Part shown: positions 21,566 through 39,467 of the stretch, piece by piece | Position numbering within the stretch: the stretch's first letter is position 1 | Layout: each line of letters opens with the position of its first letter | Origin: Myxococcus dinghuensis | GTDB taxonomy: Bacteria; Myxococcota; Myxococcia; Myxococcales; Myxococcaceae | Assembly (NCBI RefSeq): GCF_024198235.1 | Contig: NZ_JAKCFB010000003.1 | Location: 372,001 to 436,000, forward strand | DNA length: 64,000 nt | Direction of reading: 5' to 3' | Notes under the pieces: model-generated | Database searches by the model: none | What the model was told of the DNA's origin: nothing | Seen by the model: the letters and a program-made list of their open reading frames with translations, nothing else | Made by a program: the position numbers and the translations under genes

Positions 21566-21580
21566 TGTCACCTCTGCGAG

Positions 21581-22483
21581 TCAGTGTCCGCGCGCGGCCT
21601 TCCACGTCGCGTGGAAGCGCGCCAGCGACTCGGCCAGCTCCAGCGGCTTCGCCTCGAGCTGGGTCCGCGCCTTGTCCGTCTTCAGCCCGCCCTTGAGTGG
21701 CCGGGGGCTGGGCAGCTTCAGCTCCGCCATGCGCGTGGGGACGATGAGCCCCGCGTCGAACCCGAACACGTCACACAGCGCCCGGCCGTAGCCCACCCGG
21801 TCGATGACCGTGCCGCCGCACGTGTTCCAGGTGCCGCCCAGCCTCCGCTCGCCCAGCTCCACCAGCATGGCGGCCACGTTGTCCGCCAGGCTCGGCGACA
21901 CCACCTGGTCCTCGAAGAGCTTCACCTGCTGGCCCTTCTCCAGGTTCGTCACCAGCCACGCGCCGAAGTTGAGCCGGCCCTCCACGGGCGGCCAGCCATA
22001 GACCACCGCCGTGCGCGCGATGGCGCAGCCGGGCGCGAGCACCCGCGCGGCCTGCTCCCCCATGTGCTTGGTCACCGCGTAGACGCCGCGGGGGTTGGGC
22101 ACCGCGGCCTCGTCGTACGGTCCCGCCTCGCCGTCGAAGACGTAGTCGGTGGAGACGTGGACCAGGTGCGCCCCGGCCGCCTGCGCGCTCCGGGCCACGG
22201 CGGCCGTCGCATTCACGTTGCCTGCGTACGCCGCCTGCGGGTCCTTCTCGCAGGCATCCACCTCCGTCATGGAGGCGCAGTGGATGACGACGTCGGGGGC
22301 GGCGGCCTTCAGCGCGCTGGCGACGTCCGCCTCGCGCGTCAGGTCGACGGACGCGTAGCCGTACTCGCCCCCCGTCCGCCGCGGGCCGCGCCCCAGCCCC
22401 ACCACCGTGTGGCCGCCCTTCTCGAAGAGGGAGCAGACGCGGCTGCCCACCAACCCGTTGGAGCCCGTGACGAGCACTCGCAT
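21581..22483 (-). CDS. rfbD: dTDP-4-dehydrorhamnose reductase
   Basis: A 300-residue short-chain reductase. Rossmann motif GSNGLVGS (7-14), VIHCASMTEVDACEKDP, LVHVSTDYVFDGEAGPY and the catalytic YAVTK identify RmlD, which makes dTDP-L-rhamnose using NAD(P)H. It begins four bases after the rfbB stop, so the two are tightly linked. Together with rfbB, rfbA and rfbC the full dTDP-rhamnose pathway is encoded here. Confidence 0.93.
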   Translation of the reverse strand: MRVLVTGSNGLVGSRVCSLFEKGGHTVVGLGRGPRRTGGEYGYASVDLTREADVASALKAAAPDVVIHCASMTEVDACEKDPQAAYAGNVNATAAVARSAQAAGAHLVHVSTDYVFDGEAGPYDEAAVPNPRGVYAVTKHMGEQAARVLAPGCAIARTAVVYGWPPVEGRLNFGAWLVTNLEKGQQVKLFEDQVVSPSLADNVAAMLVELGERRLGGTWNTCGGTVIDRVGYGRALCDVFGFDAGLIVPTRMAELKLPSPRPLKGGLKTDKARTQLEAKPLELAESLARFHATWKAARGH

Positions 22484-22487
22484 GGCG

Positions 22488-23513
22488 TCACGCCCTCCCC
22501 TGCAGGCGGTGCACGTACTGCGTCTCGTAGTACCGCTGGTACGCGCCGCTCGTCACCCGCTCCCACCACGCGCGGTGCTCCAGGTACCAGTGGACCGTGT
22601 CCGCCAGTCCCTGCTCGAAGGTGTGCACGGGCGTCCAACCCAGCTCCGCGCGGCTCTTCGACGGGTCGATGGCATAGCGCCGGTCGTGCCCGGGCCGGTC
22701 CTTCACGTACTGGATGAGGCTCTCCGGCTTGCCCACCAGGCCGAGGATGGCCTTCACGATGTCGATGTTGCGCCGCTCCGCCCCACCGCCGATGTTGTAG
22801 ACCTCGCCGGCCCGGCCCTTCTCCAGCGCGAGCAGCAGCGCGCGGCAGTGGTCCTCGACGTGCAGCCAGTCGCGCACGTTGGCGCCGTCGCCGTAGACGG
22901 GCAGCGGCTTGTCGTGCAGCGCGTTGACCACCATGAGCGGGATGAGCTTCTCCGGGAACTGGTAGCGCCCGTAGTTGTTCGAGCAGCGCGTCACCACCAC
23001 GTCCATGTGGAACGTGTGGTGGTACGCCAGCGCCACCAGGTCGGAGCTCGTCTTGCTGGCGGAGTACGGGCTGGAGGGCTTGAGGGGCGAGGACTCGGTG
23101 AAGGCCCCCGTGGGGCCGAGCGAGCCGTAGACCTCGTCGGTGGACACCATGACGAAGCGCTTCACGCCTCGCGCGCGGCTCGCCTCCAGCAGTTGCTGGG
23201 TGCCGAGCACGTTGGTGGTGATGAACACCTCCGGCCCGAGGATGGAGCGGTCCACGTGGCTCTCTGCCGCCAGGTGAAGGACGGCGTCGACGGCGTGCTT
23301 CGCCATCAGGTGTTCGACCAGCTCCCGGTTGCCGACGTCGCCCCGGACGAAGACATGGCGGGGGTCGCCCTCGAGGTCGGACAGATTCTCCAGGTTGCCC
23401 GCATACGTGAGCTTGTCGAGGTTGACGACCGTCCAGTCGGGTCGCTCGCGCCGCAGGTACCTCACGAGGTTGGAGCCGATGAAGCCGCAGCCTCCTGTCA
23501 CCAATACGTTCAT
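22488..23513 (-). CDS. rfbB: dTDP-glucose 4,6-dehydratase
   Basis: A 341-residue extended SDR enzyme and first gene of the rhamnose operon. GGCGFIGSN (7-15) binds NAD; LDKLTYAGNLENL, HLAAESHVDRSI, VSTDEVYGSLG and the catalytic YSASK follow, and RCSNNYGRYQFPEKLIPL is typical of RmlB. It converts dTDP-glucose to dTDP-4-keto-6-deoxyglucose. Transcribed divergently from the glycosyltransferase at 23622, with 108 bases holding both promoters. Confidence 0.95.
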   Translation of the reverse strand: MNVLVTGGCGFIGSNLVRYLRRERPDWTVVNLDKLTYAGNLENLSDLEGDPRHVFVRGDVGNRELVEHLMAKHAVDAVLHLAAESHVDRSILGPEVFITTNVLGTQQLLEASRARGVKRFVMVSTDEVYGSLGPTGAFTESSPLKPSSPYSASKTSSDLVALAYHHTFHMDVVVTRCSNNYGRYQFPEKLIPLMVVNALHDKPLPVYGDGANVRDWLHVEDHCRALLLALEKGRAGEVYNIGGGAERRNIDIVKAILGLVGKPESLIQYVKDRPGHDRRYAIDPSKSRAELGWTPVHTFEQGLADTVHWYLEHRAWWERVTSGAYQRYYETQYVHRLQGRA

Positions 23514-23621
23514 GTGCCGCGAGCCTCGAATCGTCGGGAAGGGGCCTCCCGTCGCCGAGGGGTTCTACACCAGGGAGGCCGGGCTTGTGTGCACCCTCTC
23601 GCGGGGCTAAGGGACCCAGGC

Positions 23622-25259
23622 GTGAGGACACAGCGACGCAGCCCCCCGACGTCGGGGCCTCGGGCCATCCACCAGCTCCTGCCACGTCTCGCCTGGGGCG
23701 ACGCGGTGGGCAACCAGGTGCGCTACCTCCAGGGGTTGCTGCGCCAGTGGGGTCATCCCTCGGAGATCTACGCCGAGGACTGGGACGACGCGTGCAAGGA
23801 CCAGGTCCGGCACGTGCGCGACTGCGCCCGCGATGCGACGGATGACACGGTCTGGGTGATCCACCACAGCTTCGAGTCGCGCCTGGTGCCACTCATCGCT
23901 CGCACGCCCGGTCGCAAGCTGCTCGTGTACCACAACGTAACGCCTGCTCGGCTGTTCGAGGGGTTCGAGCGCAAGGTCGCCGCCGCCTGCGACGCGGCCC
24001 GCGATGAGCTGCTCGCCCTGCGTCCGCTCGTGGACCATGGCTTCGCGTATTCGCGCTTCAGCGCGGAGGAGTTGACGGCGGCGGGCTTCATGTCCGTCTC
24101 CCTGCTCCCGTTCGCCATCGACTGGACGGCCTTCGACGCCCCCGCGGACCCCGCGCTCCAGGCGGAGCTGTCCGATGGCTGCGCCAACATCCTCTTCGTG
24201 GGCCGCGCGGTGCCGAGCAAGAAGGTGGATGACGTGCTGCGCGTCTTCACGGCGTATCAGCGGCTCTACCAACCGCGCAGCCGGCTCGTCGTCGCGGGAT
24301 ACCTGCACCGTGACGGCGCCTATGGCGCCTCTCTGCACGGACTCAAGGACGTGCTCGGCGCGGAGCGCGTCCACTTCCTGGGACGCGTGAGCGCGGCGCA
24401 GTTGTCCGCGTGCTTCGCCACGGCGTCGGCCTACCTGTCCATGAGCCGGCACGAGGGATTCGGCGTGCCCCTCCTGGAGGCCATGTACCGGGGCGTGCCC
24501 GTGGTCGCCTACGGCGCGGCGGCCGTTCCCGAGACGATGGGCGGAGCCGGGCTCGCCACGCTGACCGACGCACCGGAGGATGTCGCGGAGCTGCTCGCCG
24601 TCCTGGACAGGCGACCCTCGCTGCGCGCGCAGGTCCTCGAGGCGCAGCGTCGACACCTGACCACGCTCTCCCAGGACCTCGTGGCCCGGCGGGTGCGAGA
24701 GGCCTTCGACGAGGTGCTCGCGGCGCGGCGTGCGCCAGAGCCTGCGCCTACGGTCCAGGCAAGCGTGGAGCTGGTGTGCCCAGGCTTCACGGTGCGCCCT
24801 CGGGATGCAGCCACCCAGCTCACCCGGAGACTGGCGGAGCGCCTGCCCGGCGCGCGGGTGCTCGCGTTGAGCCCGAGGGGCACGCCGTCCTCCGGAGCAC
24901 CGCGCACCACGACGGAGGTGGGAGGAGTCCCGGTGTGGCACTTCACGCCGGACCAGCCCGTGGGACGGGGCGTGGGCGCCCTGCCCGGCGCGTCCTCGCT
25001 CGAGAGCGCCGTCCGCGTCTCGTCCGGGAAGGTGGTCCTGCTGGGCGCGGAGACGCTGACGGCCCAGGCGCTCGCGCCGCGCGTCGGCCCACGGGCCTGG
25101 GGCGTCTTCGAGCCGTCGGACGCTCCTTCTGCGTTGGAGGCCGCGCGGCAACACCTGGGCGCGCGGCTCGTGCCCATGGACTCGTCACGGCTGGACTCCG
25201 CCGTGGAAACCCTGTTGAACGCCCTTTCCTCTTCACGAGGTGCGGCCCTTGCGCGCTGA
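23622..25259 (+). CDS. GT4-type glycosyltransferase with unidentified C-terminal domain
   Basis: A 545-residue protein read from GTG 23622. Residues 20-370 look like a GT-B glycosyltransferase: AIHQLLPRLAWGDAVGNQVRYLQGLL at the N terminus, LFVGRAVPSKKVDDVLRVF, and SMSRHEGFGVPLLEAMYRGVPVVAY for the nucleotide-sugar site. The remaining ~170 residues (VELVCPGFTVRPRDAATQLT onward) form a separate region I do not recognise. It is divergent from rfbB and overlaps the next gene by 20 bases, so it likely adds a sugar, possibly rhamnose, to the cell-surface polysaccharide; donor and acceptor are inferred from context. Confidence 0.85.
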   Translation: MRTQRRSPPTSGPRAIHQLLPRLAWGDAVGNQVRYLQGLLRQWGHPSEIYAEDWDDACKDQVRHVRDCARDATDDTVWVIHHSFESRLVPLIARTPGRKLLVYHNVTPARLFEGFERKVAAACDAARDELLALRPLVDHGFAYSRFSAEELTAAGFMSVSLLPFAIDWTAFDAPADPALQAELSDGCANILFVGRAVPSKKVDDVLRVFTAYQRLYQPRSRLVVAGYLHRDGAYGASLHGLKDVLGAERVHFLGRVSAAQLSACFATASAYLSMSRHEGFGVPLLEAMYRGVPVVAYGAAAVPETMGGAGLATLTDAPEDVAELLAVLDRRPSLRAQVLEAQRRHLTTLSQDLVARRVREAFDEVLAARRAPEPAPTVQASVELVCPGFTVRPRDAATQLTRRLAERLPGARVLALSPRGTPSSGAPRTTTEVGGVPVWHFTPDQPVGRGVGALPGASSLESAVRVSSGKVVLLGAETLTAQALAPRVGPRAWGVFEPSDAPSALEAARQHLGARLVPMDSSRLDSAVETLLNALSSSRGAALAR

Positions 25260-25884
25260 AGACCTGCTGACCACCAGCCCCACGGCCGAGGCCGTGGCGG
25301 AGGAGACCCGGAGACTCCCCGCGCCTTCACCGGAAGCAGCCGAGGCGCTGCGACACACCCTGGAGCGGTCCGCGAACGCCAGCCCACCCGCGCCGTGGCC
25401 CGCGCTTCTCCAGGAGGCACGGGGGAAGATGGACAGCCGCTACGCGGGGCCGGTGACTTCGCATCGCGGGGGGCTCAGTGGCCCCGCGCTCGTCCTGGCC
25501 AAGCGCGCCTTCCGCCTCCTCTTCCAGCCCTTCATCAACGAAGCCCTGCGCAAGCAGGTCGAGTTCAACGAGTCCATCCTCGACGCGCTCGCCACCATCC
25601 ACGACGTGCAGCGCGAGCACGCACGAGCCCAGGCCAGTTGGCGGCAGGAGATGGATCGCCGCCTCGCGAACATCGAAGCCGCGGCGCTCGGGCGTGTGGC
25701 CACGCGAGAGGCATCACCGGACACGAGTCCCGCCGGGGCCTCCGACCACGGCAGCGCGCCCACGGCCACACAGCCTCCCGATGGTGCCTCGACACGCGCC
25801 CCACCGCCCGAGCCCGGAGGGCCGGTGAACCGTCAGGGCCGTGGCGCACGTGCTGGAGGACGGGGGCGCGGCGGTCGTCGATGA
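25240..25884 (+). CDS. Small protein with SHR-KR-QxxFN motif, glycosyltransferase partner
   Basis: A 214-residue protein starting at GTG within the previous gene. No enzyme fold is visible. Residues 74-117 carry SHRGG, AKRAFRLLF, PFINEALRKQVEFNESIL, a basic amphipathic helix that also occurs twice, plus a degenerate third copy, in the N terminus of WbgA. A charged helix of coiled-coil type follows (about 120-150), then a disordered Thr/Pro/Gly/Arg-rich tail. The overlap with the glycosyltransferase gene and the shared motif suggest a role in assembling the polysaccharide machinery, perhaps docking enzymes at the membrane. That role is inference. Confidence 0.7.
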   Translation: MRPLRAEDLLTTSPTAEAVAEETRRLPAPSPEAAEALRHTLERSANASPPAPWPALLQEARGKMDSRYAGPVTSHRGGLSGPALVLAKRAFRLLFQPFINEALRKQVEFNESILDALATIHDVQREHARAQASWRQEMDRRLANIEAAALGRVATREASPDTSPAGASDHGSAPTATQPPDGASTRAPPPEPGGPVNRQGRGARAGGRGRGGRR

Positions 25885-26235: not shown

Positions 26236-28461
26236 CTACCGGATGGACGAGGCGATCGTCCGGACGCGCTTGTTCAGGGCATCCGCCAGCACATAGCGCG
26301 TGGGCCGGCTTCCATCCGTTCCCGCCGTCAACCCCGACGCGGCGTACTTGAGCGCCTTGTGGAGCAACGGCAGCCGCTTGAGCGAGACGTTCACCCGGTC
26401 CATGACGCCATGGAGCCGATGCACCACCTCCACCTTCACCTCGGGCGCCGGCGGCGGGGCCTCGGGTGCGACGGCGAGGAGCAGGAACGGATCCAACTGG
26501 ATGCCCGCCGGCAGCGGGTGCTTGAGGTTCCGGTGGAGCTGATTGAGCAGCTCCAGGTGCCGGCGCGGGTTGACGCCCGAAATCATCGAACCGCCTCGGC
26601 GGCGGTAGTGGAAGTGGATGGCGTTGGTGACCAGGAAGCGGTGCCCGGCATGCGTGAGGCGCAGGTAGAGGTCCCAGTCCTCGTAGCTGCGCAGCCGCTC
26701 GTCGTAGCGCGTGTGCTCGAACAGCGAACGGCGCATCAGCGAGGTGGCGGAGGAGAGACGGTTGGCCACCATCCCGAGGGAGGGGCAATCCCCCAGGAAC
26801 ATGGCGTAGTCGCAGAAGCGCCGCTCCGCCAACGCCTCGTCGGAGTCGAAGTAACCCGTGGCGGGCACCACCACGTCGTACTCCCGGTGGCGCTCCAGCG
26901 CCTCCACCGCGAGCTGGATGAAGCGCGGACCGATGCAGTCGTCCGCGTCCAGCGGAAGGACGTACTCGCCGCGAGCCGCGTCGAGGGCGATGTTGCGCGA
27001 CGCGGGCAAGCCACGGTTGACCGGGTTGCGGATCAGCCGGAGGTTCGACCCACCGTCCTCGGAGGCGACCGCGATGCGCTCCATCATCGCGTGGTCGAAC
27101 GGGTCCGTGGAGGCGTCATCCACGAGGATGATCTCCACCTCGGGATAGGTGCTCTCCGCGATGCTCTCCAGCGCCTCGGGGAGGTAGCGCGCCAGGTTGA
27201 AGTTGGTGATGAGCACGCTGACGAGCGGCGTCCGCGCGGTCGTCGCGCGCGCGCGCCGGGCACGCGGGTCCGGCGTCTCCCAGTACGGGACATCCGCCGT
27301 CCACTCCACGGGGCGGAGGTCCGGGGACTTCCAGGCGCGCGCGATGGCCTCCGCCAGGCCGTTCACCGAGCCATCGAAGGTGTAGCAGTTCACGCCGTCC
27401 ACGAACGGGCTGCCCGGCGCGAAGGCCACGCACTCGCCGTTGAGCACCAGGGGCGCGCCCACCGACGACGCCTCGTAGGCCGCCAGGTTGACGGATTCGT
27501 AGTCCGACGGGATGACCACGATGCCCCGGCGCATCAGGGCCTCGCGGTCCTTGCTGGGGCCGGTGAAGACGAAGCGCGGACGCAGGTCCGCCGGAACGAG
27601 CGACTTCACCCAGTCCAGGTGCTCACCGGGCACCATGACGCAATCGAGCACCGCCCGCCCGGTGTACTCCGGGTGGTTGCGCATGAACGTCGCGGCGCCT
27701 CGGACGAACAGGTCGGCGCGCTTGAAGCGCTGCACCTTGGAGACGAAGAGCAGGTCCGGCACTTCCCACTCGCGAGACCGGAGGCTCGCGTCGGTCCGCA
27801 GCGCGACCGGCGGGAACTGGCAGGTCACCTTCTGCTTCCACTGCTCCGGGAAGCGATAGAAGGCGTGGTTGAAGTCCGCCACCCGCGGCAGGTGCGCGAT
27901 GACGCGGTCCGCGTCGAGGAGCGCCTTGCGCTCGAGCTCCGACTGACCGTGATTGTCCTTGGTGAGGAGCTGACGCTCCATCTGGGCGATGATGCCGAAG
28001 GTCGAGTGCAGCCGGACCACGACCTCCGTGTTCGCGAACGCCCCCCCGAGCAGCTTCTCCTGCAGCGTGCAGAAGGCCCACCCCAGGTAGTCGGGAAACT
28101 CGATGACGTCGAAATGGAGGCCCGAGGCCTCGAGCCGCCGGAGCTGGAGCATCAGCTCCAGCGACGTCGCGTGCTGGAACGTGTCCGTGAAGGCCCCTGG
28201 GGGCGGGTAGACGCCGCCCTCGTCGAAGCGCAGGTCCCAGGTGCCTCGGGACTGGGCGACATGGGCGCGCACCCCACCGCCGAAGTGCGCCTCGATCGCG
28301 GAGGGCACCACCGCCACGGTGGAGGGGAAGAGCAGGTGCAGCTCGACGGAGCTCTCCCGCCGCAACGAGTCCATGACGAAGTTGTGGACGAGCCGACCGA
28401 TTCCCCCCTGGGTGAACGGATAGAGCTCGTCCGTGACGAGACACACACGACGAGGACTCAT
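26236..28461 (-). CDS. Fused GT4-GT2 glycosyltransferase
   Basis: A 741-residue protein starting at ATG 28461, overlapping the stop of the upstream gene (ATGA). Residues 1-400 are a GT-B enzyme: CLVTDELYPFTQGGIGRLVHNF at the start, LLFVSKVQRFKRADLFV near 240, GIVVIPSDYESVNLAAYEA near 313-331. Residues 412-690 are a GT-A family 2 enzyme: LVSVLITNFNLARYLPEALE, ILVDDAST and PLDADD as the metal-binding motif, with EDWDLYLRLTHAGH. The last 60 residues are helical. It thus should add two sugars in turn to the O-antigen chain. Last gene of the wzm-wzt-wbgA operon. Confidence 0.87.
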   Translation of the reverse strand: MSPRRVCLVTDELYPFTQGGIGRLVHNFVMDSLRRESSVELHLLFPSTVAVVPSAIEAHFGGGVRAHVAQSRGTWDLRFDEGGVYPPPGAFTDTFQHATSLELMLQLRRLEASGLHFDVIEFPDYLGWAFCTLQEKLLGGAFANTEVVVRLHSTFGIIAQMERQLLTKDNHGQSELERKALLDADRVIAHLPRVADFNHAFYRFPEQWKQKVTCQFPPVALRTDASLRSREWEVPDLLFVSKVQRFKRADLFVRGAATFMRNHPEYTGRAVLDCVMVPGEHLDWVKSLVPADLRPRFVFTGPSKDREALMRRGIVVIPSDYESVNLAAYEASSVGAPLVLNGECVAFAPGSPFVDGVNCYTFDGSVNGLAEAIARAWKSPDLRPVEWTADVPYWETPDPRARRARATTARTPLVSVLITNFNLARYLPEALESIAESTYPEVEIILVDDASTDPFDHAMMERIAVASEDGGSNLRLIRNPVNRGLPASRNIALDAARGEYVLPLDADDCIGPRFIQLAVEALERHREYDVVVPATGYFDSDEALAERRFCDYAMFLGDCPSLGMVANRLSSATSLMRRSLFEHTRYDERLRSYEDWDLYLRLTHAGHRFLVTNAIHFHYRRRGGSMISGVNPRRHLELLNQLHRNLKHPLPAGIQLDPFLLLAVAPEAPPPAPEVKVEVVHRLHGVMDRVNVSLKRLPLLHKALKYAASGLTAGTDGSRPTRYVLADALNKRVRTIASSIR

Positions 28462-30440
28462 GACTGGACGAACTCCTCGAGCACCCGGAACGCCTCCTGA
28501 GTCAACACACGCTCGTAGTCCATCATCATCCCGGTCAGCTCGGCCGGAGACCGCTCCCGCAGCTCCAACACCTGGTCGATGGCATCCCTCACGCGCTCCA
28601 CCGAATCCACGTGAACCATCTGGGTGAGCTTCTGGTACGGATGCGCATCCAACGCCCCCAACGCGAGCGGACCGTGCAGACACGGCACGCGGAGCACGAG
28701 CCCCTCCAGCGCCGTCATGGGCTGGCACTCGGACAACGAGGCGTTGAGCACGATGTCGCAACGGCGGACCAGATCGAACATCGTCGCGCGGTCGGGGCGC
28801 GGCACGCTGACGACGCGCTTGGGTCCGCGCAGGGCCTCCGGCATCAGATACGTCGCCGTGACATGGAGGGTGTCGAGGCGCGACGAGGCATGCCCGGCGA
28901 ATAGGTTCGTGTAGAAGTTCTTCCGCCAGTCGTTGGGGATGGGGATGAAGGCCTCGCGCGTGGGCCGCGACGGCGGCCGGCCGCGCTCGGCCTCGGACAT
29001 CCGCGGGGGTACGTTGAGCACCGTCTTCGGGAAGACCTCCTCCGCGAGCAGGTGCATCCCGGGCTTCACGGTCGCCACGGCGTTGAGGATGCCTCGCCGT
29101 TGCAACTCCACGAGCTGGCCGAAGTAGTCGATCTCGATGGGGTTCGGGAACTGCGCCGTCGAGCCGTGCCAGAGCGCGAGCAGCCGAATCGAGGAGCCGA
29201 GCGCCTTGCGCAGGGCCTCCACGACCTGGTGCGCCGTGGGCGAGAAGGCATGGACGATGACGGTGTGACACAGGCTCTTCTCGACGTAGGCCAGCGCGGC
29301 GAGGAGGTCGTGTCGCTCCAGCGTCCGCTCCGAGGGGATGGCCATCTTCCGCCCCGGGAAGTAGCCCGCCGCCGCGCGGATGCCGTGCCAGTCCTGGTGG
29401 AACAGGTGGAGCACGCCGTTGAACCGCGCGGACTCGTGCGCCCAGCGCGTGTCGAGCGCCGCGTCGGTCACCACGGCGGGCAGGGCCTTCGACGGCGTGG
29501 ACAGAGGCTTCACCTCGGGCGGCGACATGCGCGGCGCCCGGAAGCGCGCGAGGTCATCCGACAAGGAGCGCAGCCGCTGACGCCGGGCGAGACGCTCCGC
29601 CTCCGTGCTCAGTTGCTGGGACAGCTCTGCGATGCGCGCATCCTCCGGGCGGGAGAGCTGCTCGCTGGCCTTCTCCGACCAGTCCAGGAGCCGGAGGAAC
29701 GCGCTCTCGTGGAGCGTCTGGAGCCCGAGCGGCTGGGACTCGCTCCGCGCGTCCTCCAGGTTCCCGACCTGGAAGTAGCGGCGCCCTCCCTCCGCGTTTC
29801 GCTTGAGGAGGTACAGGTCCTGTCCACTCACGGGCTCCGAGGCGTGATGCAGGTCCCAGCCTTCCGGCAGCAGGCTCGCGAAGGGATGCAGCCACCGCCC
29901 CGGGCGCGACGAGAAGTCCCAGAGGCTCACGGGAACGAGCGGGTTCTCCAGGAGGATGAGCGACCCACCGGGACGCACCAGGTCCCCGAGCTCCTCCATC
30001 AAGCCGGTGATACGCCCGCTCGGGGTGTAGCCGAGCGCGGAGACGGAGAAGACGCAGTCGAAGGAGCGTCCCGCCAGGACCTTGCGAGGCGAGTCTCCGT
30101 GGAAGATTCGCTCGGCGACGGGGGACACGGAGGGCGGCGGCTCCTGCCGCAGCGGCTCCGTCATCGACACCGAGACGTCGTACCCGTGGTAGCGGACGCC
30201 CGGCAGCGCGGCGACCGGGCCGGCGAGCCGACCGAAACCACAACCGAACTCCAGGACGTCGAGCGTCGCATCACCGCGACGCTGTTCAGCCTTCAGCAGA
30301 GTGGCGAGCACGCGCGTCTGGCGACCATGCAGCGCCGTCCCTGGACCTTCTGATGCGAGCGTCACCTCGCGATAGTCAGAACCGCGGGTCGACTTCCAGA
30401 ACTGAAGACTGTCCTCTGTGCTGTCGAGTTCCTTGTACAT
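28458..30440 (-). CDS. Fused SAM methyltransferase and GT-B-like protein
   Basis: A 660-residue protein. Residues 40-235 form a class I methyltransferase: VLEFGCGFGRLAGPVAAL (63-80) binds SAM, YHGYDVSVSM follows, then CVFSVSALGYTPSGRI. A coiled-coil stretch (about 262-300, IAELSQQLSTEAERLARRQR) links to a C-terminal GT-B-like half (about 330-655) with a CDIVLNASLSECQPMTALEGLVLRVP element typical of GT4 donor sites. Methylation at a chain end is a known way to stop ABC-exported O-antigens, so a terminator or decorating role is plausible. It overlaps the GT4-GT2 gene and lies 15 bases after wbgA. Confidence 0.82.
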   Translation of the reverse strand: MYKELDSTEDSLQFWKSTRGSDYREVTLASEGPGTALHGRQTRVLATLLKAEQRRGDATLDVLEFGCGFGRLAGPVAALPGVRYHGYDVSVSMTEPLRQEPPPSVSPVAERIFHGDSPRKVLAGRSFDCVFSVSALGYTPSGRITGLMEELGDLVRPGGSLILLENPLVPVSLWDFSSRPGRWLHPFASLLPEGWDLHHASEPVSGQDLYLLKRNAEGGRRYFQVGNLEDARSESQPLGLQTLHESAFLRLLDWSEKASEQLSRPEDARIAELSQQLSTEAERLARRQRLRSLSDDLARFRAPRMSPPEVKPLSTPSKALPAVVTDAALDTRWAHESARFNGVLHLFHQDWHGIRAAAGYFPGRKMAIPSERTLERHDLLAALAYVEKSLCHTVIVHAFSPTAHQVVEALRKALGSSIRLLALWHGSTAQFPNPIEIDYFGQLVELQRRGILNAVATVKPGMHLLAEEVFPKTVLNVPPRMSEAERGRPPSRPTREAFIPIPNDWRKNFYTNLFAGHASSRLDTLHVTATYLMPEALRGPKRVVSVPRPDRATMFDLVRRCDIVLNASLSECQPMTALEGLVLRVPCLHGPLALGALDAHPYQKLTQMVHVDSVERVRDAIDQVLELRERSPAELTGMMMDYERVLTQEAFRVLEEFVQS

Positions 30441-30455
30441 ACGCCCGTCAGAACC

Positions 30456-33400
30456 TCACTCCAGGATGGACCGCAGCCTTCCAGCGTCCGCCGCGAGCAG
30501 GTGGTCCATCATCCGGTCCACCTGCTGTTCCCAGCTCGTACGGCGCACCCGCTCGGCGGCGCGAGCCCCCAAGCTAGCACAAAGCCCTACGTCCAACACC
30601 GCCCTGCGCAAGGAGGCCAACACGGAGGATGGAGAAGGTGCTGTCAGCAGACAATTCGCGCCGTCTTCGAGCAGCCAGTGGTTCGCTGGATTGTCATTGG
30701 TCACCACCGTCACCCCACACGCCATCATCTCCAGCGGCAGATACGACGGATGCTTCGTGAACATGAAGCACAGACCGACGTCGCATTCACGATACAGCGC
30801 GGCGGTGCGCTCGGCGGGCAACACTCCCAGGTTCGTCACCAGCCCGCGCACACCATAGGACTCCGGATTCCACTCCGCGCCCGCGGTGACGATCTCGACC
30901 GCGGGCCCCAGCTCGCGCTTCAGTCGCGTCAGCGCGGCGAGCCCCAGCTCGAAGCCGTTGCGCTCGTTGCCCGGGCGTCCGTAGAAGAAGACGCGCACGG
31001 GGCCCTTGCGCGCGGGGCGCCGGTCATGGAAGAGCGCGCCGTCCACTGCGGGCTCGAAGGCGAAGCCATCCATGCCGTGCAGGGCCTTCACCGTGTCGCG
31101 CAGGCCCGGCGTGTTGAAGATGCCCTGGAAGCCCAGGTGATACGTCTGCTCCGCGAGCGCGGACTGCGTGCCGGCCGCGAAGAACATCGGCTCGTAGTCC
31201 TGGACGAAGTAGGCGCGAACCCCCGCGCGGGGATGGCGCAGCACCTGGTACGCGGAGGTCCAGTAGGTGGCGATGGCCAGGTCGCAGGCCGGCAGCTCCG
31301 CCAGCGACGCGGCGCCGGACAGGACGCGGAAGGCCCCCACCGCGCCGGGGAACACCGGCGCCACGCGCGCCTCGAAGTCCCCGGGGCTGGCGCCGGGCTT
31401 GTCGTAGACGACGAAGTCGCTGCGCACGCCGTGACGCCGCTGCATCAGGTCCGCGAAGCGGAACAGCGTGTGGATGCCCGCGTAGACGTGGCCGAAGGCG
31501 GGGATGAACCACGTCGCCGTCTCCACCTTCCCCCGACTGCGCAGCGAGGCCAGCGCCGCCGGCGCGCCCTCGCGCGAGGCCTTCGCCTCCTCCGGCGTGG
31601 AGTCCAGGGCGTCCAGGTGGTCGATCAGGTGGCGCTGGGTGCGCGCCCGGTCCTCCAGCGACGCGTCGCGCGCGCTGGGCACGTCGTGCGTCAGCGTGCG
31701 CAGGGCCAGCGTCTCCCCCGTCTCCTCGTGTCGCCGCAGCGAGCAGTCCGTGCCCAGCAGCGAGAGGTTGGGGTTGAAGAAGGGGTCGCCCCGGGGCCCC
31801 AGCCAGGGCCGGTACGCGACGTAGGACCACCAGTAGTCGGACTCCGGGACGGCGTCCGCGCGCCGGCTGGCCGACTCGTGGTGGATGAGGCGCGCGTGCG
31901 GCGTGTACACCACCCGCAGGCCCTGCTGGTTCAGCCGCAGGCCGATGTCCACGTCGCTGCCGCACACCTGGAAGCGCTCGTCGAAGCCCTTCGCCGCCTC
32001 GAACACCGAGCGGCGGAAGATGACGCACGCGCTGGTGACGGACAGCCAGTTGCGCGTCCACCCCGTGTGTCCGAAGGGCGTGGAGATGGGACCATCCGGC
32101 AGGCGCCAGAACGGGTGGCCCGCCATGCCGGTGATGCCCACGACCGCGCCCGCGTGCTGCACCGTCCCCTCGGGGAAGAGCAGCTTGCACCCCACCGCGC
32201 CCACCTCCGGGCGCTGCGCCTGGGAGACCAGCTCCTCCAGCCACCCTGGGTCCACGACCTCCATGTCGTTGTTGAGGAAGAGCAGCAGCTCCCCGGTGGC
32301 CTGCCGCGCCGCCCAGTTGTTGATGGCCGGGTAGTTGAACGGGAAGTCCCACGTCAGCTTCACCAGCCGGGGGTCCGTCAACCGCTCCAGCAGCGCGAAG
32401 GTCTCCGGCTTCGTGCTGTTGTTGGAGACGAGCAGCACCTCGAAGTTCGGATACGTGGTGCGCGACAGCAGGCCCGGGATGAGCAGCTCCAGCAGATCCG
32501 GCCGGTCCTTGAACGGGACGATGATGGACACCTTGGGTGTCCCTCGCACCGGGTAGCGCACGCGGTACTGCGTGGGCGCGGGGCTCGTCACCTCCGCCGT
32601 CTCGCCCAGGCGGGCCAGGTGCTCACGCAGCGCGCGCACGCCCGCGTCCGTCGCCTTCGCGAGCCCCGCCGCCTGGCTGGAGAACGACGCCGGGTTGGCG
32701 CGCCAGTGGTACAGCAGCTTCGGCACGTGGCCGATGCCGCGCGTGGCCTCGCTCAGCCGCAGCATCAGGTCGTAGTCCTGGGAGCCGTCGAAGCCCTCGC
32801 GCACGCCGCCCACTTCCGTCAGCAGCGCCCTGCGCGCGACGAGGAAGTGACAGACGTAGTTCACCGAGCGCAGCAGGTCCGGCGACCAGTCCGGCTTGAA
32901 GAAGGGCGCGGCGCGGCGCCCCTCCGCGTCCAGCCGGTCCTCGTCGCTGTAGACGACGTCGAGCGAGGGCTCCGCCGCCACCGCGAGCGCCCACTCCGCC
33001 AGCGCGTGCGGCGCCAGCGTGTCGTCATGGTCCAGGAAGCCCACCCATTCCCCGCGGGCCACGGCGAGGCCGGCGTTGGTCGCCTTCGCGATGCCCCCGT
33101 TGCGCTCGAGCGTCACCACCCGGATGCGGGAGTCCCGCGAGGCCGCCTCACGCAGCATCCCCGCCACGTGCGGCGCCGTGCTGGCGTCGTCCACCAGCAC
33201 CCATTCCCAGTCGGAGTAGAGCTGGGCCGCCACCGACTCGGCGCAGGCGCGGAAGAAGGGCTCGGGCGTGTCGTAGACGGGCGTGACGAGCGACACGAGC
33301 GGACGCGATGCCAGCGCCGCCACCGCCTCGCGCGCGGCCTGGATGTCCCCCGCCTCGCGCGCGGCGCACCAGCCCTCGTAGTCCCCCAGCTCCGGCGGCC

Positions 33401-34277
33401 GGGGCGGCGGCGTGCGCGTCCCCAGCACGCCCGCGAGCGCCAGCACGGCCTGCTCGTTGAAGCGCGTCTGACGGCGCAGCAGCTCCGTCCACAAGGGGCC
33501 TCCAGCACGCAGCGCCCGCGGCAGCACCTCCGGCCGCAGCGGGTCGTTGCGCTCGCACAGCTCCGCCACCCACTTCGCGCCCGTCGCCTCGTCGGGGGGG
33601 CGTGGGGCGGCCGCGGCGACGAGGGCCTCCACCAGGGTCCGGTTCCATGCCGCCTGGCCTCGCAAGAGGCCCTCCAGCACGGGCCCCACCGCGGACAGGT
33701 AGGAGCGCTTGGCCGCCTCCACCACGGAGCCCAGGGCCCCACCCCGGTGCGAACGGGCGACCCGCCACCGCGTGGGGTCCGCCTTCGGCTCCAACTGCGC
33801 GCGAACCCAGGCGGACACGTCCTCGCGCAGGCCCAGGGCGCGGTGCACGCCCAGGTACTCCAGCACGCGCACCACGGCCTTGTTGAAGTCCGCCTGCGGG
33901 CGCAGGGACTCGACGTGGAACGGGTGCAGCCCGTCGATGAAGGCGCGCTTGGTGGCCGTCACCACCTTGCCCACGTGGTCGCGCCGGTGGGACTCCGGCA
34001 CCGCGAACTCGTGCGGCACCGCCAGCCGCGCGGCCTCCTGCAGCGGCGACAGCGCATGCGCGCCGTCCGGGGCCGCCTGATGGAGCCGCGTGGTGAGCAG
34101 CCGCAGCGCGGCCTCCAGGGCCGTCACCTCCGCGCACCTCTCCGGGAGGCAGGGGCGCCGCTCGTCCAACAAGGCGCGCACCACGGCCACCATCGCCGCC
34201 AGCTCCCCGGCCCCTGGCGCGGCATCCGGCGCCCCCACGTCGGACGCGAGCTTCTCCAGCATTGTCTTCACCGCCAT
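30456..34277 (-). CDS. wbgA: Three-module glycosyltransferase, WbgA-like
   Basis: A 1273-residue protein; ATG 34277 follows GAGAGGGGG. Residues 1-300 are helical, with SHR...KRAF...QADFN (96-142), SHRGG...KRSY...QAAWN (176-222) and a degenerate copy (252-286). Then come GT2 module one (327-560, VDDAS, DHDD 417-420), GT2 module two (581-800, VSNNS, NNDME 669-673, HAGAVVGI) and a WsaF-like GT-B module (917-1265, YFVQDYEPMFFAAG, FYGRPGNERNGFEL, HPSYLPLEMMACG). WsaF-type enzymes are rhamnosyltransferases, matching the dTDP-rhamnose operon nearby. Position after wzm-wzt matches wbgA of M. xanthus O-antigen synthesis; the symbol rests on that order. Confidence 0.85.
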   Translation of the reverse strand: MAVKTMLEKLASDVGAPDAAPGAGELAAMVAVVRALLDERRPCLPERCAEVTALEAALRLLTTRLHQAAPDGAHALSPLQEAARLAVPHEFAVPESHRRDHVGKVVTATKRAFIDGLHPFHVESLRPQADFNKAVVRVLEYLGVHRALGLREDVSAWVRAQLEPKADPTRWRVARSHRGGALGSVVEAAKRSYLSAVGPVLEGLLRGQAAWNRTLVEALVAAAAPRPPDEATGAKWVAELCERNDPLRPEVLPRALRAGGPLWTELLRRQTRFNEQAVLALAGVLGTRTPPPRPPELGDYEGWCAAREAGDIQAAREAVAALASRPLVSLVTPVYDTPEPFFRACAESVAAQLYSDWEWVLVDDASTAPHVAGMLREAASRDSRIRVVTLERNGGIAKATNAGLAVARGEWVGFLDHDDTLAPHALAEWALAVAAEPSLDVVYSDEDRLDAEGRRAAPFFKPDWSPDLLRSVNYVCHFLVARRALLTEVGGVREGFDGSQDYDLMLRLSEATRGIGHVPKLLYHWRANPASFSSQAAGLAKATDAGVRALREHLARLGETAEVTSPAPTQYRVRYPVRGTPKVSIIVPFKDRPDLLELLIPGLLSRTTYPNFEVLLVSNNSTKPETFALLERLTDPRLVKLTWDFPFNYPAINNWAARQATGELLLFLNNDMEVVDPGWLEELVSQAQRPEVGAVGCKLLFPEGTVQHAGAVVGITGMAGHPFWRLPDGPISTPFGHTGWTRNWLSVTSACVIFRRSVFEAAKGFDERFQVCGSDVDIGLRLNQQGLRVVYTPHARLIHHESASRRADAVPESDYWWSYVAYRPWLGPRGDPFFNPNLSLLGTDCSLRRHEETGETLALRTLTHDVPSARDASLEDRARTQRHLIDHLDALDSTPEEAKASREGAPAALASLRSRGKVETATWFIPAFGHVYAGIHTLFRFADLMQRRHGVRSDFVVYDKPGASPGDFEARVAPVFPGAVGAFRVLSGAASLAELPACDLAIATYWTSAYQVLRHPRAGVRAYFVQDYEPMFFAAGTQSALAEQTYHLGFQGIFNTPGLRDTVKALHGMDGFAFEPAVDGALFHDRRPARKGPVRVFFYGRPGNERNGFELGLAALTRLKRELGPAVEIVTAGAEWNPESYGVRGLVTNLGVLPAERTAALYRECDVGLCFMFTKHPSYLPLEMMACGVTVVTNDNPANHWLLEDGANCLLTAPSPSSVLASLRRAVLDVGLCASLGARAAERVRRTSWEQQVDRMMDHLLAADAGRLRSILE

Positions 34278-34354: not shown

Positions 34355-35647
34355 TCAGGGATGCGAGTTGCCCACCAGCGCTGGCGCCACCGGCACCGGC
34401 ACCGACTCCACCACCCAGTGGTGGACGGGGCGGAACACCCCGCGCTCCGCCACCGAGGAGTTCACCACGAAGGGACACCGCTCCGTGGACTCGCCGCCGC
34501 GCGTGCGCGCCGTCACCTGGAGCACGTAGCTGCCCGCCAACAACCCCAGGCGCTCCAACACGAGCCGCATCCGGCCGGACGCGGGGAGCTCGTCCGGAAG
34601 GGCCACCGACTCCACGCGGGTGCTCGTCTCGTAGAGCGTCTTGCCGTCCGCCGCCTGGAGGGCGACCTCGAACTCCACGTCCTCGCAGCGCCCCTGGGCG
34701 GAGAAGTCCGCGCGAACCTCCACCGCCGTCTCCGGCGACAGGTGCGGGCACTCCCCTCCCGCGGTGTCCGTCAGGCGAAGGCCGCTGATGCGCACCGGCG
34801 CCTCCCCACCCACGCCGAACACCTCCGGCAGCGCGCCGCCCCCTTCCGTCAGCGCCGGGGGCGTGAAGGCCACGTCCTGCGCCTCCGCCAACGCGATGGC
34901 CTGCTTGTACTCGGTGACCACGTCCGACGGACGGCCCACCCGGCGGATGTAGCCTCCGTCGATCCACGCGGCCAGGTCACACCACTGCTCCACGGTGTTC
35001 AGGTCGTGCGTCACCAGGACGATGGTCTTCCCCTGGCGCTTGAACTCCTTCATCTTCGCCAGGCTCTTCTTGCTGAAGTGCTCGTCGCCCACGGCGAGGA
35101 TTTCGTCGACGATGAGGATGTCCGGGTCCACGTGCGTGGCCACCGCGAACGCCAGGCGCATGTACATGCCGCTGGAGTAGGTGCGCACCGGCTCGTCGAT
35201 GAACTCCCCCAGCTCGCTGAAGGCGATGATCTCATCCATCCGCGCGCGGACCTCCGCGCGGGACATGCCCAGGATGATGCCGTTGATGAGGATGTTCTCG
35301 CGGCCGGAGAAGTCCGGGTGGAAGCCCGCGCCCAGGTCCAGCAGCGCGGAGATGCGCCCGTTGATCTCCATCACCCCGGAGGTGGGCGCGTAGATGCCGG
35401 TGATGAGCTTGAGCAGGGTGCTCTTGCCCGAACCGTTGCGGCCGATGATGGCGACCGTCTTGCCCCGGGGGATGTTGAGGTTGATGCCGCGCAGGGCGGT
35501 GATGAGCCCCGCCTCCCGGGGCTTGCGCTCGCCCCGCAGCCAGCGGAGCAGCTCGGACTTGAAGGTCGTGTACTCGCCTCGGATGGTGCGCTTCCGAAAG
35601 CTCTTCACGACGTCGCGCAAGACAATGGCGTCGATGGATTCCTGCAT
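34355..35647 (-). CDS. wzt: O-antigen ABC exporter ATPase
   Basis: A 430-residue protein. The ATPase domain spans about 1-250: Walker A GRNGSGKST, the loop LGAGFHPDFSGRENI typical of polysaccharide exporters, the YSSGMYMRLAFAVATHVDP signature with ILIVDE Walker B, and a switch His in LVTHD. Residues 290-425 form a beta-rich C-terminal domain like the Wzt domain that recognises the modified end of the O-polysaccharide. It pairs with the permease encoded nine bases upstream and moves finished chains to the periplasm. Presence of the extra domain suggests a chain with a capping group, fitting the methyltransferase downstream. Confidence 0.93.
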   Translation of the reverse strand: MQESIDAIVLRDVVKSFRKRTIRGEYTTFKSELLRWLRGERKPREAGLITALRGINLNIPRGKTVAIIGRNGSGKSTLLKLITGIYAPTSGVMEINGRISALLDLGAGFHPDFSGRENILINGIILGMSRAEVRARMDEIIAFSELGEFIDEPVRTYSSGMYMRLAFAVATHVDPDILIVDEILAVGDEHFSKKSLAKMKEFKRQGKTIVLVTHDLNTVEQWCDLAAWIDGGYIRRVGRPSDVVTEYKQAIALAEAQDVAFTPPALTEGGGALPEVFGVGGEAPVRISGLRLTDTAGGECPHLSPETAVEVRADFSAQGRCEDVEFEVALQAADGKTLYETSTRVESVALPDELPASGRMRLVLERLGLLAGSYVLQVTARTRGGESTERCPFVVNSSVAERGVFRPVHHWVVESVPVPVAPALVGNSHP

Positions 35648-35656
35648 GGCGACCGC

Positions 35657-36439
35657 TCAGATGGACTCCGCGAACTCCTCGCGGCGGGATTCGAAGATCG
35701 TCGAGGCGCCCCACAGGAGCACCAGGGAGAACACGGCCAGCCCCGCCAGCGGTCCGGCGTCCGGCAACCGGTGCTCGTAGAAGATGGCCTGGTAGGAGAC
35801 GAGCAGGCTCGACATGGGGTTGAGCGTCAGCACCGCCAGGCGCATGCGCTCATCCTGGATGGTGGACGTCTGGTAGAGCACCGGCGTGGTGAAGAACCAC
35901 AGCGTCAGCACGTTGTTGACGATGTGCTGCAGGTCCCGGAACGCCACGTTGATGGCGGCCAGGATGTAGACGATGGCCAGCGTGAAGACGAGCTGGATGG
36001 CCACCACCAACGGGAAGGCGATGACGTGCCAGGTGGGGAGCTGCCCGTAGAAGGCCCCCAGCACCAGCATCAGCGGCAGCGACAGCATGTAGTTGCAGAG
36101 GTTCGTCACCACCACCGTGGTGGGCAGCACCTGCGCGGGGAAGCGCACCTTGGTCATCAGGTCGCGGCGGTCGCTGATGGCGCTGGCGCCCGCGCTCAGC
36201 GACGAGGAGAACCAGATCCACGGCAGCAGGCCCACGAACATGAAGTAGGCGTAGTTGGGGGTGTTCTGCCGCATCACCACGGTGAACAACAGCGCGTACA
36301 CCAGCATGTGCAGCGTGGGGTTCAGGAACGTCCAGAGGAACCCGAGGAACGAGCCGCGATAGCGCGCCTTCAGCTCCCGCTGGACGAGGCTGAGGAGCAA
36401 GCCCCGGTACTGGTACAGTTCACGGACGAGGCGGATCAT
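35657..36439 (-). CDS. wzm: O-antigen ABC exporter permease
   Basis: A 260-residue protein with six membrane helices. ELYQYRGLLLSLVQRELKARYRGSFLGFLWTFLNP is condensed here to its key parts: RELKARYRGS followed by LGFLWTFLNP, the ABC-2 polysaccharide permease signature. I chose ATG 36439 because GAAGGG lies seven bases upstream; an ATG five codons earlier has no such site. First gene of the wzm-wzt-wbgA operon; its promoter should lie in the following 500-base region. Confidence 0.92.
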   Translation of the reverse strand: MIRLVRELYQYRGLLLSLVQRELKARYRGSFLGFLWTFLNPTLHMLVYALLFTVVMRQNTPNYAYFMFVGLLPWIWFSSSLSAGASAISDRRDLMTKVRFPAQVLPTTVVVTNLCNYMLSLPLMLVLGAFYGQLPTWHVIAFPLVVAIQLVFTLAIVYILAAINVAFRDLQHIVNNVLTLWFFTTPVLYQTSTIQDERMRLAVLTLNPMSSLLVSYQAIFYEHRLPDAGPLAGLAVFSLVLLWGASTIFESRREEFAESI

Positions 36440-36955
36440 GAGGGGGCCCTTCATATAGCAGGGCCAAGGAAGGATGCGAGGTAGACGGGGAACACGAGGC
36501 GTCTCGTCACTGCATCCGCCGGGCCGTCCGTCTCCAGGGCAGGCCCCCGCCTCCACGTCGCGCGTCGTTCGCCAGCCGCGCCGTGTCGCCGTCGAGTGGA
36601 CACGTCGGCGGCGAGGGCATCCGAGTGTCCGCGCCCCACGTCTCCTCCCTCCCCACCGGGCAGGCCCGCGACGCGCGGCCCCCCACGCGCATGCCGGACG
36701 CGTGTGTCCGCGACGCCTCAGATTTCCACCAGCGCGGCGGTGACCCACCACGACGGAAGGCGTCATCCGACCCAATCGGACGGTGACGCGCCGAGCAGAC
36801 CATGCGCGTCGACGTCGCGTGAGGTGGAACACGCGCCCGCGCTTCTTGAACCCGGGAGGTCGTGTCGAAGGGACCCGACCTGGACGTCGGGAACACGTCC
36901 CCGCAGCGGCTCGCGAGCGACATGCGGGCCAGCGCGCGAGGCCCCTGAAACGCCA
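36440..36955. other. Intergenic region upstream of wzm, ~515 bases
   Basis: No gene is apparent. Open frames on both strands here are not coding-like and run into tRNA sequence. It must contain the wzm promoter, but I cannot point to a convincing -35/-10 pair. The tRNA-Gly terminator forms its right border. Confidence 0.5.
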
Positions 36956-36988
36956 ACGGCCGGAATCCCACGAGGAGATTCCGGCCGT
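36956..36988 (-). terminator. Strong hairpin after the tRNA-Gly pair
   Basis: ACGGCCGGAATC and GATTCCGGCCGT form a perfect twelve-base-pair stem with a nine-base loop, thirteen bases beyond the CCA end of the second-transcribed tRNA. Confidence 0.8.
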
Positions 36989-37000
36989 CGAACGTCTTGA

Positions 37001-37075
37001 TGGAGCGGGAAAAGGGATTTGAACCCTCGACCCTCGCCTTGGCAAGGCGATGCTCTACCGCTGAGCTATTCCCGC
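37001..37075 (-). tRNA. tRNA-Gly (GCC), copy 2 of the transcript
   Basis: A 75-base tRNA with encoded CCA. Acceptor GCGGGAA pairs with TTCCCGC; D arm AGCTCAGCGGTAGAGC; anticodon loop TTGCCAA (GCC) on a CTTGCCAAGG context; T loop TTCAAAT. It is identical base for base to the copy at 37104-37178. Confidence 0.95.
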
Positions 37076-37970: not shown

Positions 37971-39467
37971 CTAGCGGAGGCCGAGGGCGATGAGGGCAAA
38001 ACCTTCGCCGCCCAGCTCCACGGCCGCCCGGAGCGCCTCCCCGCTGGGTGACTTGAGCAGGGGCACCACCCGGGGCGTGAGGTTGCCCTGCCAGCCCACC
38101 AGGTGCGTCAAGGGCACCGTCACCGCCTCCTCCGGGCGCACCGCCACGGAGCGCAGCGGCCCCGGCAGGCTGAGCAACACCCGCCCCTGGCCGCGCAGGT
38201 GGACCAGGTCCAGGTCCGGCGCGATGTCCGACGGCACCCGGCCATTCTCGAACATCACCGGCTCCTCGAAGGCGAAGAGGTACTCGTCGCGGAAGTACGC
38301 CGAGTCCTCACCGAGGTCGACCGCGAGCAGCGTGCGCCGCTCGGCGGGCTCCAGGTGCAGCACGCCCTTGCCGCGCGCGCGGACCATGCGCGAGCCCCCG
38401 TCCCCGAACGGCTTGTCCGTGGCCCGGCCGCGAAAGCGCTTCATCTCCGGTTGGAAGGCGAGCTGGCCCTGGATGGCCACCAGCCCGTCGAGCCGCGTGA
38501 GCACCTCTCCCTCCACCGCGATGGAGAACGAGCCGCGCCCCAGCACGAAGGGGCCTCCGGCGCCCGCCCCCTCCAGCGCCAGCGACGGCGCCAGCTCCCC
38601 CAACACCGGCGTGGTGGACTCCGTCCCCGCGGCGCGGCGCGGCGCGGGCTCGCTGTCCGCGGGGGCCACCGCGGGCGCGGCGACCCGGGTCAACTGCAGC
38701 TTCGTCAGGGGGACCGCGGACTTCTCGACGACCGCCGGCACCGGGGCCGGAGGTGGTGGCGAGGCGGGCTCTTCCGGCGGGGCGGCGGGGACCGGCGTCA
38801 CCTCGCCGTCGGTGAGGGCGCTGGGGCCCTCGTCCTCGGCGAACCGGATGTCCTCCTCCTCCGGCTCCGGAGGCGGCGCGGGCGGAGGGACCACGGAGGC
38901 CTCCTCGCGCGTGGCCGGCGCGGGGCGGGCGGCGGCGGCGGCCGGTGGTGGCACCGGAGCGGGCGTGCCGCGGGCGTAGTTCTCCCCCGCGATGGCTCGC
39001 GACATCTTGTCCGCCATGGCGTCGCTGCCGGCGAGCAGGAAGTGCTCGCGCGCGCGCCCGTACTCGCCCATCTGCGCCAGCGCGAGGCCCAGGTAGTTCT
39101 GGGCCTTCTGGTGCTCGGGCGCCAGGTCGGTGGCGGTCTCGAACTCGCGCACGGCGCGCTGCAGGGCGTTCGTCTTCAGGTAGACGAGCCCCAGGTTGAC
39201 CCGGAGCGTCGGGTCCACCGGGTTGTCGCGCACGAGCATCTCGTAGAGCTCGGCGGCGCGGTCGAAGCTGCCGAGCTTGAAGTAGCACAGGCCCAACAGG
39301 TTCTGGGCCTTCTCGTTCCGGGGCTGGAGCTGATGGGCGCGCTCCAGGAACTCCTTCGCTTCGAGGGTCTTGTTGGCGGCCAGCAGCTCCCCGCCCCGGT
39401 GGATCTGCTGGAGGAACTCGTCGTCAGCGGGGCTCGTCTCCGCCCGCCCCTTCGCGCGCGTCGTCAT
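37971..39467 (-). CDS. TPR protein with C-terminal AIM24 domain
   Basis: A 498-residue protein. Four TPR units occupy about 20-160 (AQNLLGLCYFKLGSFDRAAELYEML, LRVNLGLVYLKTNALQRAVREFE, AQNYLGLALAQMGEYGRAREHF). A disordered Pro/Glu/Ala-rich linker follows (about 170-280). The last ~210 residues are beta-rich and match the AIM24/TIGR00266 type (FVLGRGSFSIAVEGEVLTRL, RARGKGVLHLEPAERRTLLAVDLG, VHLRGQGRVLLSLPG). AIM24 proteins have been linked to mitochondrial membrane organisation in yeast; the bacterial role is open. No signal peptide. It overlaps the transglycosylase gene end by 44 bases. Confidence 0.83.
   Translation of the reverse strand: MTTRAKGRAETSPADDEFLQQIHRGGELLAANKTLEAKEFLERAHQLQPRNEKAQNLLGLCYFKLGSFDRAAELYEMLVRDNPVDPTLRVNLGLVYLKTNALQRAVREFETATDLAPEHQKAQNYLGLALAQMGEYGRAREHFLLAGSDAMADKMSRAIAGENYARGTPAPVPPPAAAAARPAPATREEASVVPPPAPPPEPEEEDIRFAEDEGPSALTDGEVTPVPAAPPEEPASPPPPAPVPAVVEKSAVPLTKLQLTRVAAPAVAPADSEPAPRRAAGTESTTPVLGELAPSLALEGAGAGGPFVLGRGSFSIAVEGEVLTRLDGLVAIQGQLAFQPEMKRFRGRATDKPFGDGGSRMVRARGKGVLHLEPAERRTLLAVDLGEDSAYFRDEYLFAFEEPVMFENGRVPSDIAPDLDLVHLRGQGRVLLSLPGPLRSVAVRPEEAVTVPLTHLVGWQGNLTPRVVPLLKSPSGEALRAAVELGGEGFALIALGLR

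Follow-up and report, generated by a model that had tools for sequence, protein, structure and literature searches.

A widespread, predicted helical SHR-QxxFN module found almost only in bacteria with Wzt_C-type exporters, with a plausible functional likeness to the C-terminal end of WbdD

We describe a short protein module, predicted to be helical, with the consensus SHR-x3-G-x6-KR-x16-Q-x2-FN, that recurs in a polysaccharide locus of Myxococcus dinghuensis and is found almost only in bacteria with a Wzt_C-type exporter. It appears to be a real, widespread and previously undescribed element, a broad new form of a known kind of part. The copies discussed first lie in a window of 64,000 nucleotides (contig NZ_JAKCFB010000003.1, positions 372,001 to 436,000), the whole stretch of DNA analyzed here. 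On balance, we lean toward the view that the module is a membrane-anchoring, oligomerizing unit in which the start of a basic amphipathic helix runs into a coiled coil.

The wbgA gene (30456..34277, minus strand) encodes a protein of 1,273 residues, of which residues 1-310 are helical and carry the module repeats, followed by glycosyltransferase domains. In Pfam searches, the catalytic part extends from residue 329 on and comprises two GT2 domains (Glycos_transf_2 in two stretches) and a WsaF-like GT4 domain; the latter is the C-terminal domain of the rhamnosyltransferase WsaF (WsaF_C, 6.4e-30), and the WsaF Pfam models do not reach the module region. Module copy 1 spans WbgA residues 96-142 (33852..33992, with SHR beginning at 33992) and copy 2 spans residues 176-222 (33612..33752, with SHR beginning at 33752), both on the minus strand and both identified by profile and shuffle tests. 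The first-pass annotation had placed these two copies correctly; they belong to the minus strand, and a plus-strand reading of 33612-33992 was rejected as a spurious frame. A third copy at residues 249-290 (33408..33533, minus strand) consists of the coiled-coil half only, with RRQTRFN from 33476.

Local alignments against 2,000 shuffles placed the clear copies far above the shuffled controls, as the first-pass annotation had required of them (z 11-18). Copies 1 and 2 matched each other at z=17.8, and each matched the copy at 25459, at z=11.4 and z=12.6, respectively, with 0/2000 shuffles as good in all three comparisons. The degenerate third copy gave z=4.6-6.8 against the clear copies (4, 0 and 0 of 2,000 shuffles as good) and 11.8 bits under their profile. 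Because its R-R-Q-x-x-F-N (R268, R269, Q270, F273 and N274) is invariant across 11 WbgA homologues, we regard this copy as real, as had been proposed, even though it lacks the SHR/KR half. When the window's six-frame open reading frames were searched with the profile of the three clear copies, which match it by construction, two proteins were retrieved (E 5e-57 and 2e-27); no further module was detected in the window beyond WbgA and the protein at 25249 (next best E 1.3).

This second protein is a standalone carrier (25249..25884, plus strand; 211 residues with a TTG start) composed of the module (25459..25599, plus strand; profile and shuffle alignment), a coiled coil of ~40 residues and a low-complexity tail. 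An alternative in-frame GTG lies at 25240, and the TTG start is preferred because relatives begin MRAEDLL. Its match to Unstab_antitox/TIGR02574 (E about 0.05) is far below the cut-off and was dismissed as a coiled-coil artefact. Directly upstream lies a GT4 glycosyltransferase gene (23571..25259, plus strand; Glycos_transf_1, 1.3e-21), whose open frame reaches back to 22407 and whose 3' end overlaps or abuts the standalone module gene. The exporter is encoded on the minus strand by wzt (34355..35647), an ABC ATPase with a C-terminal carbohydrate-binding domain (ABC_tran 2.3e-22; Wzt_C 3.7e-9), and wzm (35657..37045), an ABC-2 membrane protein (PF01061, 1.3e-13). With wzm and wzt beside glycosyltransferase genes, the locus has the arrangement of an ABC-transporter-dependent O-antigen cluster. 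Also on the minus strand are dTDP-rhamnose-type genes for a nucleotidyl transferase (20684-21571), RmlD (21581-22483) and an RmlB-like dehydratase (22488-23513), and a gene for a module-free SAM methyltransferase with a weak C-terminal GT-B match (28458..30440; Methyltransf_12, 3.6e-11), whose 660-residue product is a candidate O-antigen end-modifying enzyme of the locus. Near wzm, 37971-39467 (minus strand) encodes a TPR protein with an AIM24-like domain at its C-terminus. The counterpart of WbgA in M. xanthus is presumably RfbC. The O-antigen of that species depends on Wzm/Wzt from the rfbABC locus (PMC7484181).

Elsewhere in the genome (10.4 Mb, 124 contigs), a separate contig holds one extra, diverged copy (G000:C59:120728-120874, E 1.9e-6); the small protein that contains it is encoded after a double-GT4 gene and before a GT2 gene. 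Two other matches (L006 and L007, E 0.5-0.9) were discarded because they cover 18-19 residues and fall in long frames that are probably spurious. The module is present in 53/59 genomes of the same family, the common set being a WbgA of ~1300 residues with two copies, a nearby standalone protein and a standalone protein at a second locus. Of 28 Myxococcaceae genomes that have Wzt_C, 24 carry a module at most 12.5 kb from it, by distances read off tables, against a chance expectation of ~1%. Across the myxobacterial phylum, 5/33 module-bearing genomes gave no Wzt_C match.

A profile built from myxobacterial copies gave few matches outside Myxococcaceae, and we therefore turned the conserved spacing into a DNA pattern (H-R-x3-G-x6-K-R-x16-Q-x2-F-N) for a wider scan of one genome per GTDB species. 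This returned at least 117 stretches, among which at least 98 module copies sit in long frames and represent many phyla. In the resulting alignment (A3), H, R, G, K, R, Q, F and N are invariant, largely because the search pattern required them; S or T precedes H-R in the at least 98 long-frame copies, though the pattern left that position free. Carriers among the matches listed include Acidobacteriota (Thermoanaerobaculia, Holophagales, Aminicenantes), Bacillota (Paenibacillus, Desulfosporosinus, Clostridia), Sumerlaeota, Nitrospinae, delta-like and Oligoflexia MAGs, and myxobacteria. Applied to unselected Acidobacteriota, the A3 profile found additional, looser members. The same pattern scan of viral sequences gave chance frames only. 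In a plasmid collection, one diverged module-methyltransferase was found on CP026659 (Deltaproteobacteria bacterium Smac51; E 0.03), between two glycosyltransferase genes; the remaining plasmid matches (relaxases, E 0.8) were taken as chance. The plasmid-borne protein (L227:8752-9954) lacks SHR (YYRPLLYAYKSVAPFIIFVGKVLRRVMGYFLVPVFGDQNKFN) and lies inside a GDP-mannose gene cluster.

The module occurs in three architectures. Standalone proteins of ~130-210 residues have a variable N-terminus, the module, more helix and sometimes a low-complexity tail. SAM methyltransferases carry the module at the N-terminus, with the motif D-x-G-C-G-x-G-E 156-234 residues downstream and an intervening spacer whose sequence is in part that of a coiled coil; one of these enzymes matches the structural-genomics methyltransferase 3DLI in its catalytic domain (5.7e-55). 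The third architecture, glycosyltransferases, is represented by WbgA and by a GT2-like protein from G062, a distant genome within the phylum. The first-pass annotation had pointed to similar stretches in other polysaccharide methyltransferases and glycosyltransferases, and the N-termini of the SAM methyltransferases and WbgA-type enzymes bear this out. In Paenibacillus, we also noticed a second module adjoining Wzt (G215:C2:200395-200526, L214) within a 404-residue protein, whose C-terminal half is FkbM-like by eye and lacks D-x-G-C-G-x-G-E.

Wzt_C, the carbohydrate-binding domain found in a subset of polysaccharide ABC exporters, was present in 29/29 non-myxobacterial carrier genomes, chosen for having the module, versus 2/14 control genomes. 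Given this ascertainment, we used samples drawn regardless of the module. Wzt_C was present in 3/3 carriers versus 11/146 non-carriers among 149 Bacillota genomes (Fisher 7e-4; the sample is centered on Paenibacillus, and one of the three carriers is that center) and in 32/34 carriers versus 52/115 non-carriers among 149 Acidobacteriota genomes (Fisher 1e-7), whereas the control family Poly_export (OPX, Wza-type) was rarer with the module in Acidobacteriota (18/34 versus 89/115; Fisher 0.009); as the sampled species are related, all of these values overstate independence and are indicative only. The two Acidobacteriota carriers without Wzt_C have weak module matches. Judged by genome-level co-occurrence, the module appears to go with a Wzt that carries a carbohydrate-binding C-terminal domain.

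The expectation that the module would cluster with wzm/wzt proved right for Myxococcaceae and for Bacillota, in which it starts ~0.2 kb past the Wzt_C match in 3/3 carriers, but it does not hold generally. In Acidobacteriota, module and wzt are mostly unlinked (0.28 and 2.2 Mb apart in two single-chromosome cases). The module methyltransferases of Thermoanaerobaculia adjoin rplI, and ribosomal protein L9 accounts for 18/93 scanned neighbors, alongside GT4 (20/93) and GT2 (8/93); the rplI-adjoining loci, such as L087, L089, L118, L145, L161 and L163, are not within a glycan cluster. Several standalone proteins of delta-like MAGs are paired with a BtuF-like protein and have no evident glycan link. 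This conserved Peripla_BP_2 neighbor, seen in delta-like and Oligoflexia MAGs (L091, L130, L142, L177, L178 and L202), has ~311 residues and 31-58% mutual identity. The tested genomes of both the rplI- and the BtuF-linked groups encode a Wzt_C exporter elsewhere.

We then considered what kind of structure the module might form. AlphaFold modeled the 25249 protein (46-sequence alignment) with one unbroken helix at residues 77-153, starting just past SHR (pLDDT block means 91-98), and WbgA with helices at residues 104-147 (copy 1), 181-222 (copy 2) and 268-285 (half copy), although these are single-chain models and such sequences commonly default to a long single helix. In the WbgA model, the QxxFN parts are confident and the first SHR segment is poor (pLDDT about 46). 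Over 47 non-redundant members, helix A (positions -9 to +8 around K) has a hydrophobicity of 0.64, a moment of 0.43 (z 1.8 versus shuffles) and a mean net charge of +3.3 with almost no acidic residues; by sequence, this composition resembles that of in-plane helices that bind lipid. For copy 2 of WbgA, the lipid-binding score is 1.03, under the usual HeliQuest cut-off of 1.34. From position +14, the hydrophobic spacing 14-18-21-25-28-32 fits a 4-3 heptad, assigned by eye, with Q18 and F21 in the core. The basic amphipathic character suggested by the first-pass annotation thus holds on average for the first half, which runs from SHR to near the P of PF; the QxxFN half is instead the start of a coiled coil.

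Its statement that no described function was known likewise agrees with our searches. No Pfam or NCBIfam family covered SHR...QxxFN in WbgA 1-310, the 25249 protein or 46 standalone proteins, and those matches that module proteins did give were weak and mostly to coiled-coil models. Sequence searches of the PDB retrieved designed helical bundles only (E 0.2-0.8), Foldseek searches of PDB folds with the 25249 and WbgA models gave nothing below E 0.8, and no mention of an SHR motif with these enzymes was found in the open-access literature.

How could such a module serve glycan export? The near-exclusive occurrence with a Wzt_C exporter suggests that it holds the enzymes that build the sugar chain together at the membrane. 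In the mechanism we propose, the basic amphipathic helix would lie at the membrane and continue unbroken into a coiled coil, with the conserved Gln and Phe of QxxFN at successive core positions; an amphipathic start joined to a continuous coiled coil would both anchor the protein at the membrane and gather copies of it. The assemblies would most likely be trimers, since a single WbgA chain holds three QxxFN helices, which hints at a three-strand bundle formed within it. In the methyltransferases with an N-terminal module, the largely coiled-coil spacer would hold the catalytic domain away from the membrane end, as happens in WbdD, whose spacer is described as a ruler, such that only long chains are capped (PMC11231755, PMC3447403, PMC3482155). 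The standalone protein encoded beside the GT4 gene could be an adaptor that collects the GT4 enzyme along with others. In WbgA, the two full copies and the coiled-coil half may form the assembly inside a single chain, which would put three glycosyltransferase domains at the synthesis site beside Wzm/Wzt. What the analysis shows is the module itself, three architectures, a predicted helix and the co-occurrence with Wzt_C exporters; we infer membrane binding, trimerization, a ruler or docking role and contacts with partners. A bolder extension, which we regard as possible but doubtful, is that this unnamed domain is the common membrane-docking, trimerizing unit of a large class of ABC-transporter glycan machines in many phyla, with all carriers joining one mixed coiled-coil bundle and WbgA bearing a built-in three-strand version. 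If so, in bacteria without WbdD, interchangeable copies of this one module would bring polymerase and terminator together.

Other readings of the same observations were considered. The module could be a protein-protein docking tag only, with the KR/PF helix bound in a groove of a partner (Wzm, Wzt or GT4) and its basic residues touching protein instead of lipid. The conservation of S-H-R and G goes far beyond what a lipid-binding helix needs (in part forced by the search pattern), copy 2 of WbgA has the composition of a weak lipid binder, and GT4 genes adjoin module genes in many lineages. However, helix A is strongly basic and nearly acid-free across lineages, which is typical of anionic-membrane binding, and the module is present in different enzymes and where Wzt is no neighbor; we judge a role in docking alone to be rather unlikely. 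Alternatively, SHR might bind undecaprenyl pyrophosphate or its glycan end, so that the module would clamp lipid-linked chains as substrates. The enzymes of the pathway work on undecaprenyl-linked chains, SHR directly precedes a membrane-type helix, and S is nearly invariant without being forced by the pattern, which did force the constancy of H and R. Such a clamp nevertheless seems improbable, as the model is a lone helix with no apparent pocket and the module also occurs without any enzyme and, in WbgA, as a half copy that lacks SHR.

The neighborhoods with rplI and BtuF-like genes in some phyla raise the further question of whether the module is a generic membrane or coiled-coil element, unrelated to polysaccharides and merely frequent in these genomes. 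Against this stand the specific co-occurrence with Wzt_C, which is absent for OPX, the position next to Wzt in Bacillota and Myxococcaceae, and the fusion with glycosyltransferase domains (GT2 and GT4 in WbgA, GT2 in G062); an unrelated element is therefore very improbable. The membrane-anchoring, oligomerizing unit would matter because the joining of polymerase to terminator and the measuring of chain length are known for only a few enterobacterial systems. A signature independent of sugar chemistry would help to pick out candidates for terminators and scaffolds in many genomes, including those of Acidobacteriota, myxobacteria, Bacillota and other groups, and would permit the ruler idea to be tested beyond Escherichia and Klebsiella. 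Moreover, hypothetical proteins of 130-210 residues gain a first functional lead.

The closest known parallel is WbdD, the cap-adding enzyme of the O9a chain. WbdD is reported to be a coiled-coil trimer whose coiled coil sets chain length, its C-terminal amphipathic helix serves membrane placement and adjoins the site that recruits the polymerase, and the cap it makes is recognized by the carbohydrate-binding domain of Wzt (PMC3482155, PMC3447403, PMC11231755). Both WbdD (E. coli O9a/K. pneumoniae O3) and the module methyltransferases combine a basic amphipathic helix, judged by composition in the case of the module, with a coiled coil and a methyltransferase at the opposite end, and both WbdD and the module occur with the Wzt_C pathway. 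In E. coli HS, wbdD immediately follows wzt, as does the module methyltransferase gene in Bacillota. The order of parts is reversed, however, since the module is N-terminal; the module methyltransferases lack a kinase, and WbdD lacks SHR and QxxFN. A coiled coil that bears a methyltransferase on one end is seen in the module methyltransferases elsewhere, whereas WbgA and the 25249 protein have no methyltransferase match in Pfam. The methyltransferase domains of WbdD and of the module type are distantly related (blastp 1.5e-6 at best). No significant similarity was detected between the module and the C-terminal region of WbdD (hhalign probability 1.3%, E 0.039; hmmsearch -0.5 bits), and on E. 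coli HS WbdD the module profile fits best, though not significantly, at FIKRVLRFVFSFM (residues 623-635, just past the coiled coil). In Klebsiella O7 ORF6 and other coiled-coil terminators of the ABC pathway, the coiled coil links catalytic modules, with a methyltransferase at the end; the portion of the source available mentions no SHR module for the ORF6 type, which was compared by description (PMC11231755). Given the shared elements and exporter type without significant homology, we do not count the module as a member of the WbdD family; though not detectably homologous to it, the module plausibly acts in the manner of the C-terminal end of E. coli O9a WbdD.
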